The notes beneath the pieces are model-generated. The model saw only the letters and a list, made by a program, of their open reading frames with translations, was not told where the DNA came from and did no database searches. Shown here one piece after another: positions 7,190-27,721 of a stretch of 64,000 bases of DNA. Made by a program: the position numbers and the translations under genes. The stretch covers positions 62,001-126,000 of the forward strand of contig JABLXJ010000004.1 in NCBI GenBank assembly GCA_013178125.1, given 5' to 3'. The DNA comes from Bacillota bacterium (GTDB lineage Bacteria; Bacillota; SHA-98; Ch115; JABLXJ01). The first letter of the stretch is position 1. Every line of letters starts with the position of its first letter.

Positions 7190-7762
7190 GTGAGACAACA
7201 CGACGCTGCCTATCTTGATGTTCACTCTGCCCGCTCCATAATATTGGCGGGGCTTTTCGGGGCCCTAACCGCGGTTGGGGCTGTTGTAACAATCCCTTTG
7301 CCATGGACGCCTGTGCCGTTTAGCCTGCAGGTCTTGTTTGTCCTCCTTTCAGGCGTCGTGCTCGGGGGGAGGCTCGGCGCGATGAGCCAGGCAATTTACA
7401 TAATCCTGGGGGTTATCGGATTGCCGGTCTTCGCCGGAGGCCACGCGGGGCCGGGCGTGCTTGTCGGCCCCACCGGCGGTTACCTGCTGGGTTTTGTGCT
7501 TGCTCCGCTCGCGGTTTCGATGCTGGCGGGACGTGGCGGACGCGGAGATCTCCGGAGCGGGGTTAGAGTCCTCGCCGGGACCTTGCTCGGCGTGGCGGTG
7601 ATTTACATACTCGGCGCGGGCCAACTCGCCCTCGTTGCGGGCCTCACGCCATCGAAGGCGATCTCCCTGGGCGTCCTGCCCTTCATCGCGGGCGATATTG
7701 TAAAGGCGTTGCTTGCAACCTGGCTTGCTGGTCACTTGAGGCGGCGCGGGCTCGTCCTGTAA
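7190..7762 (+). CDS. bioY: biotin transporter BioY
   Basis: S component of an energy-coupling factor transporter that binds biotin in the membrane. At 190 residues with about six helices it has normal length. Family features include IPLPWTPVPFSLQVLFVLLSG near residues 36-56 and VGPTGGYLLGF near 94-104. The start is GTG 7190 with AGGGGG upstream. The ECF ATPase and T subunits are not in this window, as is usual because they are shared. It is convergent with the superoxide dismutase gene, only 56 bp away. Confidence 0.93.
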   Translation: MRQHDAAYLDVHSARSIILAGLFGALTAVGAVVTIPLPWTPVPFSLQVLFVLLSGVVLGGRLGAMSQAIYIILGVIGLPVFAGGHAGPGVLVGPTGGYLLGFVLAPLAVSMLAGRGGRGDLRSGVRVLAGTLLGVAVIYILGAGQLALVAGLTPSKAISLGVLPFIAGDIVKALLATWLAGHLRRRGLVL

Positions 7763-7818: not shown

Positions 7819-8670
7819 TTACAGCTTCGGGAATGGCGGTCCCTCCCCGATCTGGCCGCCCTCGCCGCCTGCGCCGCCTGTGCTTGCGCCGTTTCCCGCG
7901 GTCCCAGCATCCCCGGCGCCGGTCATTGGAACCTCCGCCTGCATTGCCAGGCGCAATCGCCTCTCGACGTCGCGCCAGTTGACCACATGCCACCAGGCAT
8001 CTATATATTCCCCGCGTTTGTTTTGATAGTCAATATAATACGCATGTTCCCATACATCCAGCACGAGAACGGGAATGACCCCCCATTGAGTCAAGTCTTC
8101 GTGTTTTTCTGCAGTCAGAACCTCCACCCTGCCCCACTGGGGCTGCCATACCAGGAGCGCCCACCCGGAGCCTTCGACATCCTGTGCAGCTCTCGATAGC
8201 TGCTGGCGAAACGCCTGGTAGCTGCCGAAATATGAGTTGATCTGTTCGAGCACCAGGCCGCCTGGTGTGCCTCCGCCTATGGAGCTCATGTTCGTCCAGT
8301 ATATGCTGTGCAGGGCATGTCCCGAGCCATTGAAGGCCAGCTCCCTCTCCCAGTACCTGACCAGGGAGAAGTCGCAGGACCGGCGCGCCTCGACCAGGGC
8401 GAGTTCAGCCTTGTTAAGACCCTCTACGTAGGCCAGGTGATGGCGGTCGTGGTGTATGCAAAGCGTCGTGGCGCTGATGTAGGGTTCGAGAGCATCATAT
8501 GGGTATGGAAGTGACGGCAACCGGTGGCCGCCGGGCGGCACGGCAGGCGGCGCCTGCATGAAAGCTACTGAAGAGTGCGAAATCACGCTTTCATTCGGAA
8601 CATGGTTAATTGGAACATGATTAATATGATTATAGTAGATATTGCGATTATCGCCTGCATTGGGGCTCAT
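7819..8670 (-). CDS. sodA: Fe/Mn superoxide dismutase with N- and C-terminal tails
   Basis: Dismutates superoxide to peroxide and oxygen. The core carries the expected metal ligands: His in HHDRHHLAYV, His in NGSGHALHSIYW, and Asp and His in LDVWEHAYYIDY. Start ATG 8670 has AGAAGGGAG 8 nt upstream; an upstream GTG at 8679 is too close to that site. About 45 residues rich in Asn/His/Pro precede the core, and the last 35 residues are a Gly/Ala/Thr-rich tail, neither of which is standard. No cleavable signal is clear. Metal choice (Fe or Mn) cannot be settled by eye. Confidence 0.9.
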   Translation of the reverse strand: MSPNAGDNRNIYYNHINHVPINHVPNESVISHSSVAFMQAPPAVPPGGHRLPSLPYPYDALEPYISATTLCIHHDRHHLAYVEGLNKAELALVEARRSCDFSLVRYWERELAFNGSGHALHSIYWTNMSSIGGGTPGGLVLEQINSYFGSYQAFRQQLSRAAQDVEGSGWALLVWQPQWGRVEVLTAEKHEDLTQWGVIPVLVLDVWEHAYYIDYQNKRGEYIDAWWHVVNWRDVERRLRLAMQAEVPMTGAGDAGTAGNGASTGGAGGEGGQIGEGPPFPKL

Positions 8671-9004
8671 GAGCAACACTCCCTTCTGGATCCGAATTTG
8701 AGCGCTTGTTTGTTGTCTATATCCAGGACCCTGGAGAACTGTAAATTGGAGAATGGCAAATTCGAGCCAATCTTAGTGTATTCATAGTTTTCGAGCCCGG
8801 TGCCGGCGGGGGATCATGCTAAGCGTGAGAAAGATAGCCCATTCCAGGCGGGTAATCATTGTGACGTTTTTCACTTTTTCGCTTGAATTTCCCCGCGCCA
8901 TATGCTAACCTAGAAGCTGGGAGACAAGAACAATAATCCGGTGGAAATAAAGAAACCTGGTTGAGGTGTTATCGGTCACCTGACGAGCCGGGGCGCGTAT
9001 CATG
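8671..9004. other. intergenic region upstream of the dismutase and hydE leader
   Basis: No convincing gene. Several short frames exist, but none has a ribosome site with coding character. A dismutase promoter could not be assigned with confidence. Confidence 0.4.
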
Positions 9005-9010
9005 TATAAT
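9005..9010 (+). promoter_or_regulatory. -10 element for the hydE leader transcript
   Basis: TATAAT preceded directly by TG. No good -35 lies at 17 nt; the best match, CTGACG, is 19 nt away. The transcript would start near 9017 and run through the terminator at 9168-9207 before reaching hydE. Confidence 0.45.
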
Positions 9011-9167
9011 GTGTGCCTTGCTCGAAGGGCGGCAATTCTAATTCTGAGCCAATTTTGAGCGAGGGGCTCAGGTGTGACTTTGAAAATAGAATTTGGTTTT
9101 TCGGGTTTTCCCTGAGACAAGGGCGAGATCGATCCTGCAGGCGAGGGGACCGTCAAAGGTGTTTCTG

Positions 9168-9207
9168 AAGGGGTCTGCCATGCGTGTTGCAGGGCAGACC
9201 CCTTTTT
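9168..9207 (+). terminator. intrinsic terminator in the hydE leader
   Basis: AAGGGGTCTGCC and GGCAGACCCCTT are perfect 12-bp arms around a 13-nt loop, and the second arm runs into TTTTT. No gene ends upstream on this strand, so it probably ends a leader RNA or a small RNA, with regulated read-through into hydE. Confidence 0.75.
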
Positions 9208-9266
9208 GATGCATGCGGTATAGGTAGCATGTGGTATGGGCGATATGGGCAGCAGGGGGGATGGGT

Positions 9267-10352
9267 GTGGAGGAAGTTATCGGAGACGCGTATGGAACAG
9301 GTACAAGATTTTGGGACGCGCTTGGCCGGGCGCGCGCCGGCAAGGATCTCACGCGCGACGAAATAAGGGCCTTGCTCCAGGCGGAGCCGGGAGACCAGAC
9401 ATGGACCCTGTTTTCCCTCGCGGACGAGGTCCGCGCGCGCTATGTTGGGGATGAGGTTCACCTGCGCGGACTTGTTGAATTCTCTAGCTACTGCGCCAGG
9501 AATTGCGCCTACTGCGGGCTGCGCCGCGACAACCGAAAGCTCAGACGCTACAGGATCGCCCCTGATGAGATCGTAGACATCGCGGAATACGGCGCGACCC
9601 TGGGCTACAAGACGATAGTCTTACAGTCGGGCGATGATTTCTGGTACTCGGCTGATGCGCTCGCCAGCATTATAACGCGTATCAAGAATTCAGCCGACGT
9701 CGCCGTGACGGTGTGTATCGGGGAGCGTTCGAGGGAGGAATACGCGACGATCAGGGAGGCCGGCGCTGACCGGTTTCTCCTGAAGCACGAGACGGCGGAC
9801 CCCGAGCTTTATAGGGACCTCCACCCCGGGATGACCCTCGAGGAGAGGGTCATGCGCCTCAGGTGGCTGAAGGAGCTCGGTTTCCAGGTCGGCTCGGGCA
9901 ACATTGTAGGCCTCCCCGGGCAGACGATAGATTCGCTCGCTGGTGATATCGTGCTTATGAGAGACCTAGGTGTGGACATGGCCGGCATCGGGCCGTTCAT
10001 CCCGCATCCAGATACCCCCCTCGCCGGGAGCCCCCAGGGCCCGCTCGAGCTCGTGCTCAAGGTAGTTGCCTGCACGCGCCTCGCCCTGCCGTGGGCGCAT
10101 ATCCCCGCCACGACGGCGGCGGGGACGGTTGACCCGCGTGGAAGGGAGAAGGCCCTCCAGTGCGGCGCAAATGTCGTCATGCCCAACATCACGCCGGTAG
10201 AGTACCGCAAGCTTTACCAGATATATCCGAATAAAATCTGCCTCTCGGAGCGGGCTGATAGCTGCAGGCGATGCATAGAGAACCGGATAAAGGGGATTGG
10301 GCGGAGCATCGGGACGGGCTACGGGCATTGCAGGGAATACGAGTTGGCATGA
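9267..10352 (+). CDS. hydE: [FeFe]-hydrogenase H-cluster maturase HydE (radical SAM)
   Basis: Radical SAM enzyme that helps build the di-iron subcluster of [FeFe]-hydrogenase. The cluster motif CxxxCxxC is Cys76, Cys80 and Cys83 (YCARNCAYCGL). Further family marks are IGPFIPHPDTPL, IPATTAAGT and MPNITP. GTG 9267 is preferred because AGGGGGG lies 6 nt upstream; ATG 9261 directly abuts that site and ATG 9231 has none. The closely related PylB and BioB families are less likely because hydG follows 48 bp later. Confidence 0.92.
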   Translation: MEEVIGDAYGTGTRFWDALGRARAGKDLTRDEIRALLQAEPGDQTWTLFSLADEVRARYVGDEVHLRGLVEFSSYCARNCAYCGLRRDNRKLRRYRIAPDEIVDIAEYGATLGYKTIVLQSGDDFWYSADALASIITRIKNSADVAVTVCIGERSREEYATIREAGADRFLLKHETADPELYRDLHPGMTLEERVMRLRWLKELGFQVGSGNIVGLPGQTIDSLAGDIVLMRDLGVDMAGIGPFIPHPDTPLAGSPQGPLELVLKVVACTRLALPWAHIPATTAAGTVDPRGREKALQCGANVVMPNITPVEYRKLYQIYPNKICLSERADSCRRCIENRIKGIGRSIGTGYGHCREYELA

Positions 10353-10400
10353 GTTTCTTTCAGAGATCGAAGAGGATCCGCAGAAAGGGAGGGAATGTTC

Positions 10401-11852
10401 ATGGCAGTGCGTGAGACGGCACACGCCGCGAGGGTCGCGGATTTCATCGATGACGGCAAGATATGGGATACGCTCGAGAGGGCGAAGGCAGCCCCGCGGG
10501 AAAGGGCAATCGATATCATCGCGAAGGCGCGGGAGGCGAAGGGCTTAGAGCCCGATGAGGTCGCCATCCTGCTTCACCAGGACGATGACGCGATCCTGGA
10601 GAAGATGTATGATGTAGCCCATGAGATCAAGGAGAGAATCTACGGGAAGAGGCTTGTTTTCTTCGCCCCGCTCTATTTCAGCAACTACTGCGTAAACAAT
10701 TGCCGGTATTGCGGCTACAGGCATAGCAACGATACCCCAAGACGGAAGCTCACCCTAGATGAGGTCAGGGAGCAAGTCAATATCCTCGAGGGCATGGGGC
10801 ACAAGAGATTAGCGCTCGAGTGCGGGGAGGACCCGGTGAATTGCCCCATGGACTATATCCTGGACGTGATCAGGGCGATCTACGATACCAGGGCCGGAAA
10901 TGGGAGCATCCGCCGCGTGAATGTGAACATCGCCGCCACTACTGTCGAAGACTACAAGCTGCTCAAGGCCGCCAAGATAGGGACATATGTGCTGTTTCAG
11001 GAGACATATCACCGTGCTACCTACGCCGAGGTGCACCCTTCGGGGCCGAAGCGGGATTACGACTGGCACACCACCGCCATGGACCGGGCGATGGAGGGCG
11101 GCATCGATGATGTAGGGATAGGCGCCCTCTTTGGACTCTATGATTACAAGTTCGAGGTCATGGGGCTCATCTATCACGCCCTGCACCTGGACAGGGAATT
11201 CGGGGTTGGACCCCATACTATATCCGTCCCTCGCCTGAGGCCCGCAGCAGGAATTTCTCTGGAATCCTTCCCCTACCTCGTGGGTGACCGTGACTTTAAG
11301 AAGCTGGTGGCTATTATCAGGCTCGCCGTGCCCTATACGGGCATGATCCTGTCGACGCGCGAACGCCCAGGCTTCCGCGATGAAGTCATACGTGTCGGCA
11401 TATCCCAGATCAGCGCGGGCTCGTGCACGGGCGTGGGCGGCTACAGGGAGGAGGTGGAGGGGGTTGAGCCCCACGACCACCAGTACCAGGACCGAGACAA
11501 CGACACGGCCCAGTTCGAGGTCGAGGATAAGCGAAGCCCCGAGGAGATAATTAGGAACCTGTGTCGTTCAGGGTACATCCCCAGTTACTGCACGGCGTGC
11601 TATCGCCAGGGGCGGACAGGCGACCGCTTCATGGCTCTGGCCAAGACCGGGCGCATTCATAATATCTGCCAGCCCAACGCCATCATGACTTTTAAGGAGT
11701 ATCTCATGGACTACGCCTCGCCCGAGACGAGGAGGCTTGGCGAGGAGACCATACAGGCGCATCTCGAGCTGGTAGAAAACCCATCCATCCGCCGTGAGAC
11801 GGAGAGCAGGCTCCGGAGAATTGAGGCGGGTGAGCGAGACCTCTATTTCTGA
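10401..11852 (+). CDS. hydG: [FeFe]-hydrogenase maturase HydG (tyrosine lyase, radical SAM)
   Basis: Cleaves tyrosine to supply the CO and CN ligands of the H cluster. It has the radical SAM motif Cys97, Cys101, Cys104 (CVNNCRYC) and, in its last quarter, CTAC followed after about 22 residues by another Cys, the ligands of the second iron-sulfur cluster that separates HydG from the thiamine enzyme ThiH. Length 483 residues is normal. ATG 10401 is chosen over 10395 because GGGAGGG is 7-8 nt upstream of the former. HydF and hydrogenase structural genes are not in the window. Confidence 0.94.
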   Translation: MAVRETAHAARVADFIDDGKIWDTLERAKAAPRERAIDIIAKAREAKGLEPDEVAILLHQDDDAILEKMYDVAHEIKERIYGKRLVFFAPLYFSNYCVNNCRYCGYRHSNDTPRRKLTLDEVREQVNILEGMGHKRLALECGEDPVNCPMDYILDVIRAIYDTRAGNGSIRRVNVNIAATTVEDYKLLKAAKIGTYVLFQETYHRATYAEVHPSGPKRDYDWHTTAMDRAMEGGIDDVGIGALFGLYDYKFEVMGLIYHALHLDREFGVGPHTISVPRLRPAAGISLESFPYLVGDRDFKKLVAIIRLAVPYTGMILSTRERPGFRDEVIRVGISQISAGSCTGVGGYREEVEGVEPHDHQYQDRDNDTAQFEVEDKRSPEEIIRNLCRSGYIPSYCTACYRQGRTGDRFMALAKTGRIHNICQPNAIMTFKEYLMDYASPETRRLGEETIQAHLELVENPSIRRETESRLRRIEAGERDLYF

Positions 11853-12150: not shown

Positions 12151-12179
12151 TTGACAAGCCATCCCGGCCCCTATATAAT
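12151..12179 (+). promoter_or_regulatory. consensus SigA promoter of secD-secF
   Basis: TTGACA, exactly 17 nt, TATAAT: a perfect match to the vegetative consensus. The start would be near 12186, about 34 nt upstream of the secD start codon. This also rules out translation from the TTG at 12151. Confidence 0.85.
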
Positions 12180-27492: not shown

Positions 27493-27672
27493 GAAAATCG
27501 AAAAAGATATGGTTGACTCCGGACCCTGCTGTGTGCGAGTCGGAGCTGACTGTTTTGTTCCAACACCAACACATAGGGAGCCCGGACTCTGGTTGTGGCA
27601 TGTATGCCACCTTGGAGTGGACACATAAAGCTTCCAGGAGGGCACCCACCTGCAGGGCGCAGGGGATTTAAA
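27493..27672 (+). ncRNA. ssrS: 6S RNA (SsrS-like), candidate
   Basis: About 180 nt behind a strong promoter and without a credible reading frame. The 5' part has CCCTGCTGTGTGC and the 3' part has GGGCACCCACCTGCAGGG; the CCCTGC and GCAGGG ends can pair to close a long imperfect hairpin, as 6S RNA requires. The location between aspS and the tcdA/yrvM gene is the place known for the Bacillus subtilis 6S-1 RNA. 6S RNA binds the vegetative RNA polymerase holoenzyme and moderates transcription in stationary phase. The ends are estimates; no clear T-rich terminator follows. Confidence 0.72.
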
Positions 27673-27721
27673 TGGTCAGCACAAACGGCACGGCGGGGTC
27701 CTCTGTGTTTTGCAAATAGAT

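Follow-up and report, generated by a model that had tools for sequence, protein, structure and literature searches.

In the current study, we characterized the leader that precedes hydE and hydG in the window, meaning the whole 64-kb stretch of DNA analyzed (G000:C4:62001-126000, from a genome of 3.48 Mb). The leader is a divergent member of an RNA family. Judging from sequence comparison, it probably attenuates transcription in cis, as would the other members of this family, which precedes the H-cluster maturation genes hydE, hydG, hydF and TM1266 and would control them. We are rather confident that the family as such is one of cis-regulatory attenuators. The evidence covers conservation, covariation, position before hyd genes, a terminator and, over the set of leaders as a whole, mutually exclusive pairing between a leader hairpin and that terminator.

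The hydE-hydG leader and its closest relative

The features of the leader and its surroundings are collected in Table 1. Among 199 relatives, the sole strong DNA match was in G001, a genome of the same genus whose record is also that of locus L053; nine further genomes gave short matches with E-values of 0.0007 or weaker. The GTG start of hydE was set by eye opposite the ATG of L053 in the alignment of the two loci. Over 2568 bases, the hydE-hydG DNA of window and L053 is 87.7% identical. Blocks of the leader are better conserved than this: 52 of 52 bases are the same at 9101-9152, as are 47 of 50 at 9158-9207, where the terminator loop is unchanged. The gaps between the blocks measure 75, 7, 17, 9 and 57 alignment columns, which is not suggestive of a reading frame such as a coding leader would have. 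A tmRNA was rejected, since it sits on another contig. In L053, module B and the terminator are further apart by an additional 57 nt (2764-2820), in which a GACCU/AGGUC hairpin is possible by eye.

Table 1. Features of the hydE-hydG leader and neighboring genes, in window coordinates.
Feature	Position	Strand	Basis or remark
Divergent superoxide dismutase-like gene, upstream neighbor	7819-8679	-	model matches below curated cut-offs
Promoter-like TTGAAT-17 nt-TAACCT, TGC before	8883-8911	+	39/43 bases of 8883-8925 same in L053
Small hairpin GGUUGA/UCGGUC, 7-nt loop	8959-8977	+	L053 stem substitution keeps the pair; two sequences only
Module A hairpin	8979-9029	+	CCUGA-stem-[GA]AGGG pattern; L053 substitutions consistent with pairing (two sequences: consistent, not proof)
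TATAAT formerly read as -10 element; apical part of module A	9005-9010	+	not conserved in L053
Variable hairpin CTGAGCC/GGCTCAG	9044-9071	+	L053 version shorter, CTGAGC/GCTCAG
R3 match	9099-9152	+	19.4 bits, model trained without the window
Module B 3' strand, antiterminator candidate	9134-9151	+	duplex with terminator 5' arm 9170-9179, -18.7 kcal/mol
Intrinsic terminator, 12-bp stem and T run to 9207	9168-9207	+	sequence, fold, L053 comparison
Shine-Dalgarno-like GGGGGG ahead of hydE	9255-9260	+	sequence; L053 has an equivalent run
hydE, radical SAM maturase	9267-10352	+	TIGR03956, 369.9 bits over cut-off
hydG	10395-11852	+	TIGR03955, 644.5 bits over cut-off

An earlier note on this DNA had described a 12-bp terminator ahead of hydE-hydG and no upstream gene. 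The terminator was confirmed by the stem, in which AAGGGGTCTGCC (9168-9179) pairs with GGCAGACCCCTT (9193-9204), by the T run and by conservation in L053; the upstream neighbor is the superoxide dismutase-like gene of the minus strand. The terminator is absent from the list of our consensus terminator scan because its loop is 13 nt and the scan allows loops of 3-8. A gene for a BioY-family biotin transporter (PF02632; window 7190-7759, plus strand) adjoins the superoxide dismutase-like gene.

The transcript of the leader has its probable start near 8918, as suggested by sequence, shortly after a promoter-like element that is a weak consensus match and whose resemblance was judged by eye. The consensus promoter scan listed no site anywhere in the leader, neither 8883-8911 nor 9005. 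The TATAAT at 9005, which the earlier note had taken for the -10 element of this transcript, is present but goes unlisted by that scan and is lost in L053, whose counterpart is CATGAT with an adjacent 7-nt deletion; for want of conservation we rejected it as the start. It falls in the upper part of the conserved hairpin at 8979-9029. Elsewhere in the window, a perfect sigma-70-type promoter (TTGACA-17-TATAAT, 12/12; 12151-12179, plus strand) lies at the start of the listed secD frame, and the true secD start is therefore probably further downstream.

None of 200 shuffles folds as well as the region 9011-9215 (z of -3.62); for the matching stretch of L053 the z-score is -1.87, and eight of 200 shuffles fold as well. 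The window leader has a fold energy of -105.5 kcal/mol when unconstrained, -104.8 kcal/mol with module B and the terminator imposed and -101.3 kcal/mol when module A is imposed too. The two alternative helices put forward earlier did not survive the comparison, as those conserved are different ones: the first hairpin pairs CCTTGCTC with CGAGCCGGGG, and the second is formed by CCCTGAG and CGAGGGG. In module A, CCUGA (8979-8983) is followed by a stem of 8984-8988 with 9020-9024 that continues into GGGGCGCGUAU/AUGUGUGCCUU, and AAGGG (9025-9029) closes the element. Of 88 leaders, 19 carry the CCUGA-stem-[GA]AGGG pattern ahead of the core, among them those of the window and L053; in shuffles the count is 0.0. 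By eye, a pairing of AAUCCGG with UCGGGUU (8935-8941 with 9101-9107) is also possible, resembling the AATCCGG/CCGGATT of some class members. RNAalifold applied to the two sequences gave answers that shifted between runs, and a larger set of sequences replaced it.

An RNA family before H-cluster maturation genes

The family was described with three covariance models. The first, R1, was made of two sequences (window and L053) and gave weak, positionally consistent matches upstream of hydE in other genera of the same order and class (searches of 100 and of 11 loci). Some of its stronger matches elsewhere were not before hyd genes, and a match in G396 precedes an unrelated gene. The R1-matched leaders have a common signature, UCCCUGAGNNNAGGGG..CCUGANNNCAAGGGGAGG, followed by a terminator. 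Eleven leaders found in this way made up R2, which was run on 398 genomes; among ten inspected of its 25 non-training rows, seven precede hydG, hydE, hydF or a TM1266-type gene and three do not. On 92 loci R2 gave 15 weak rows, and all seven that were inspected, including copies from Moorella and Thermotogota, stand before TM1266-type genes. The window was not detected by R2. The third model, R3, is a core of 48 positions trained on 17 sequences, all picked from hyd leaders and including neither the window nor L053.

With R3, the best match in the 64-kb window is the one at 9099-9152 (next best, 11.5 bits), with the core of module B at 9110-9148 (CCCUGAGACAAGGG-CGAGAUCGA-UCCUGCAGGCGAGGGG). This is also the best match in the 3.48-Mb genome, with an E-value of 0.009; the next reaches 14.5 bits, and there are 12 matches at E up to 10. 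From that E-value, simple arithmetic gives about 1e-6 as the number of such matches to be expected in the 700 nt that precede hydE, counting its strand alone. When R3 was run over many genomes under stricter filters, neither G000 nor G001 had a reported match. Since hydE starts 115 nt past 9152 on the same strand, the window leader has the gene position of the hyd leader family, along with its R3 match and its downstream terminator.

R3 was searched in two phyla, that of the window (398 genomes) and that of G398, a Thermotogota MAG (103 genomes). A match was called linked when a HydE, HydG, HydF or TM1266 match, as labeled by tblastn with five reference proteins, started no more than 700 nt downstream of it on its own strand. 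In the first set (the best 91 rows from the 398 genomes, down to 17.6 bits, with weaker rows outside it), the linked share was 32/34 at 30 bits or more, 11/11 at 25-30, 7/9 at 22-25, 3/9 at 20-22 and 5/28 at 17-20. When the 16 training places are removed, 16 of 18 matches at 30 bits or more and 11 of 11 at 25-30 are linked, so that 27 of the 29 non-training matches of at least 25 bits in the 398 genomes stand before these genes, a count that includes same-genus relatives of training sequences. The second set comprises 34 matches (31 of 42 rows plus L320 to L322), none of which was used for training. Here 2/2 matches at 30 bits or more and 12/14 at 25-30 are linked, together 14 of 16 at 25 bits or above, followed by 3/4, 6/6 and 4/6 in the lower score classes and 0/2 below 17 bits.

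Altogether 85 matches are linked, 58 in the first set and 27 in the second, in 57 and 27 genomes, respectively, and the 57 span 25 families. The nearest reference gene in the first and second set is TM1266 in 29 and 21 cases, HydG in 17 and 4, HydE in 11 and 1, and HydF in one each. No hyd or TM1266 gene lies divergently within 700 nt upstream in any of the 125 classified matches (104 with enough sequence). Both unlinked matches among the 29 above precede an ECF transporter gene. In L251 the contig end cuts the locus, which resembles the linked L255, and other unlinked matches that were inspected lie in or near unrelated genes; the ECF copies apart, the inspected non-hyd matches are taken as chance. 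Among the weaker copies outside the 91 rows are L291 1229-1263 (16.4 bits) and L292 4665-4715 (16.0 bits). Each shortly precedes a TM1266 gene, in genomes (G016 and G365) that also have a copy before hydE or hydF. BLAST of plasmids with the window leader and with a Moorella leader found nothing. An exact-pattern scan of viral contigs likewise found none; another scan gave 20 matches of 15-mers, which were uninformative.

Module B is best read as one nested hairpin, in which a variable middle helix is set off by tandem G·A on either side from an outer helix (CCU/GGG) and an inner one (GGG/CCU). Its covariation was examined in 91 distinct rows of an alignment (A7) fitted to the R3 structure, with kinship ignored. 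The proportion of pairing cells was 92.2% vs. 82.2% in shuffles, cells changed on both sides numbered 88 vs. 34.0 (sd 5.5; 0/500), and the covariation score was 0.301 vs. 0.146 (sd 0.009; 0/500), with slid versions reaching at most 0.123. Pairs with both-sided changes numbered 5 vs. 3.2 in shuffles (9/500 as high), and further pair types were not above shuffles in these rows (18 vs. 16.5; 85/500). In the middle helix, both-sided changes occur in all three pairs, two of which show GC, CG, AU and UA, while the helix pairs in only 77.1% of cells family-wide. A loop test that uses no alignment, and that preceded the alignment, scored the contiguous helix formed by the two loops of each leader against that formed with loops from other leaders, and gave 5.39 vs. 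2.80 (sd 0.48; 0/5000 permutations, kinship ignored). It took 69 sequences, reduced to 38 distinct loop pairs, and left out L248, L260, L261, L283 and L287; 12 of the 38 pairs have no 3-bp helix, and window and L053 are among these zeros. Their middle helix reads G-C, A·G, C-G, with two of three standard pairs. The comparison of leaders among relatives, a check that the earlier note had proposed for hydE, yielded a conserved structure with covariation and, in most leaders, a terminator after it.

Terminator, proposed switch and competing explanations

A terminator follows within 170 nt in 73 of 88 leaders (the 85 linked matches plus the window, L053 and L251), vs. 3.8 in shuffles that keep single-base composition. 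For the 73 leaders that have one, we paired module B's 3' strand with the terminator's 5' arm. The mean energy with the leader's own terminator was -19.55 vs. -15.16 (sd 0.38), a value reached in 0 of 5000 permutations, in which kinship was ignored. Duplexes as stable as the window's own (Table 1) form with 21% of the 73 terminators, a share in which its own is counted. Own-terminator pairing is strongest in the Thermotogota set (to -36.7 kcal/mol), and the effect is clear in the f3 leaders L202 and L198 and not in L200 and L203. In Moorella-type leaders, pairing with their own terminator is no better than with those of other leaders, so these must use another element if they attenuate. The earlier view of an attenuator-like leader of unrecognised class is supported by covariation, by the terminators and by the set-wide competing pairing, whereas the transcription start and the helices it came with are not.

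A switch built on these elements would work as follows. With module B folded, its 3' strand would be occupied, the terminator would form and transcription would stop before hydE. With module B unfolded, the 3' strand would instead pair with the terminator's 5' arm, which would let transcription run on into hydE-hydG. We infer this direction (folded off, unfolded on). The signal could be a small molecule or metal tied to H-cluster supply that binds module B. Where no terminator is present, the 3' strand AGGGGAGG in some leaders lies at the ribosome-binding site, overlapping or adjoining it, and would act on translation; in L186 and L190 the strand lies next to the start codon, which suggests translational control in such leaders.

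If the family is indeed one of attenuators, direct binding of a small molecule is somewhat the better guess, and we favor such an effector over a protein with modest confidence. A clue to its nature comes from five genomes of family f39, in which the motif stands directly before an ECF transporter S-component-like gene (L230 794-1340, L243 752-1295, L225, L266 and L269). The use of the motif with this transporter points to a nutrient-like ligand. The L230 protein, the sole one of the five tested, matched only the general Pfam family PF12822 and had no sequence relative in the PDB and no NCBIfam match. At two loci the ECF gene follows what we take to be a trpS-like gene and precedes what is presumably a branched-chain amino-acid transporter-like operon. 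It is a speculative and rather improbable idea that module B directly senses a compound peculiar to H-cluster assembly, for instance the organometallic intermediate that carries iron carbonyl/cyanide, CO or cyanide in free form, or the [2Fe] unit once complete, and that the leader would be a riboswitch for an organometallic cofactor. According to the table of predicted Rex sites in PMC8457756, hydG, a TM1266-type gene and an ECF transport protein gene of Clostridium thermocellum are among the predicted targets. As far as that table goes, hydG and the TM1266-type gene may be subject to DNA-level redox control in addition to the attenuator, and the ECF gene and hydG of that species may come under one signal.

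The competing explanation that fares best is protein-dependent attenuation, in which a protein, most likely the ACT-like TM1266, would bind the G·A-rich hairpins and set the terminator; it would regulate its own gene wherever TM1266 stands first. We regard this as possible though on balance improbable. TM1266, whose closest solved structure is 2nzc, is annotated as a putative regulator of the hydrogenase system, and it is the nearest reference gene in 29/58 and 21/27 of the linked matches. We searched for it in 25 selected motif-bearing genomes and 101 relatives. All 25 motif-bearing genomes, the window's included, encode it, and the six that lack it among 54 hydE-bearing relatives have no linked motif in the classified rows (chance of about 0.02, kinship ignored). 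However, eight relatives that lack hydE encode it too, as do hydE-bearing relatives in which no motif was detected. In the window's own genome, moreover, the gene is on another contig, with no R3 match in the surrounding 12 kb. There it lies at G000:C2:176368-176595 (L290), away from hydE-hydG, beside genes that we take to be YlmH-like and LspA-like. We know of no RNA-binding fold or domain in TM1266.

It is very improbable that the window leader is a decayed copy or chance resemblance of a family that is real elsewhere. Its weak middle helix, its score of only 19.4 bits and its absence from the R2 and strict-filter R3 results would fit such a view, but the match is the best in 3.48 Mb and lies upstream of hydE, where next to none is expected, and its block is wholly identical in L053 while the hydE-hydG DNA has diverged. 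It is likewise very improbable that the RNA ending at the terminator is a small RNA in its own right, with hydE under a promoter of its own. The strong terminator, with a loop conserved between window and L053, could belong to such an RNA, but 85 matches precede genes for hyd proteins or TM1266, a divergent placement occurs in no case among the 125 classified, some copies abut the start codon (L186 and L190), and the promoter scan listed no site between 9207 and hydE, though the same scan misses the upstream site. Finally, a DNA operator would account for short, highly conserved blocks, and the Rex sites predicted at hydG and the TM1266-type gene in the table of PMC8457756 indicate that DNA-level control exists too in C. 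thermocellum, but the middle helix covaries through GC/UA/AU/CG swaps, loop sizes vary and a single orientation occurs, which makes this explanation very improbable.

Relation to known systems

No family in Rfam 15 reached its threshold, either for the window leader or for the motif copies of 19 related loci, in keeping with the earlier note, which had recognized no known class. A permissive scan of the leader gave three sub-threshold matches, two to microRNA families and one to a lncRNA, and the microRNA matches fall on the terminator hairpin with 22.0 bits vs. a threshold of 90. The window's only Rfam match at gathering score is a 6S RNA at 27520-27703 (plus strand, 94.3 bits). In the open-licence literature of PubMed Central, which leaves subscription articles and preprints outside, our searches found no RNA motif or riboswitch described for hydE, hydF or hydG; the relevant passages of PMC8457756, PMC3543383 and PMC7988955 mention riboswitches and HydG or hydrogenase together without linking them. 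The hyd leader RNA family is apparently uncatalogued.

To our knowledge, the control of [FeFe]-hydrogenase H-cluster assembly in cells is little understood. A structured RNA before hydE, hydG, hydF and TM1266 in two phyla offers a direct handle on that control, and leaders of culturable species, such as those of Moorella, are open to in vitro probing for the signal. The ECF gene that shares the motif in one family provides a clue to the ligand, and the motif suggests where to seek a function for TM1266, whose sole annotation is that of a putative regulator.

Riboswitches that sense cofactors occur upstream of genes for cofactor synthesis. Like terminator-type riboswitches, the hyd leader has a structured leader, an intrinsic terminator, a strand shared by hairpin and terminator, and a position before cofactor-assembly genes. 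It differs from them in having no Rfam family at threshold and in its core, where CCUGA/GAGGG tandem G·A loops recur along a nested hairpin. Attenuators bound by proteins are known in the PyrR, TRAP and ANTAR types. Unlike in these, the RNA binding of TM1266 is a candidate property only, of a protein in which no RNA-binding domain is known to us; the likeness to them lies in the repeated hairpin modules, the control of a terminator and a regulator gene that is often near the motif.
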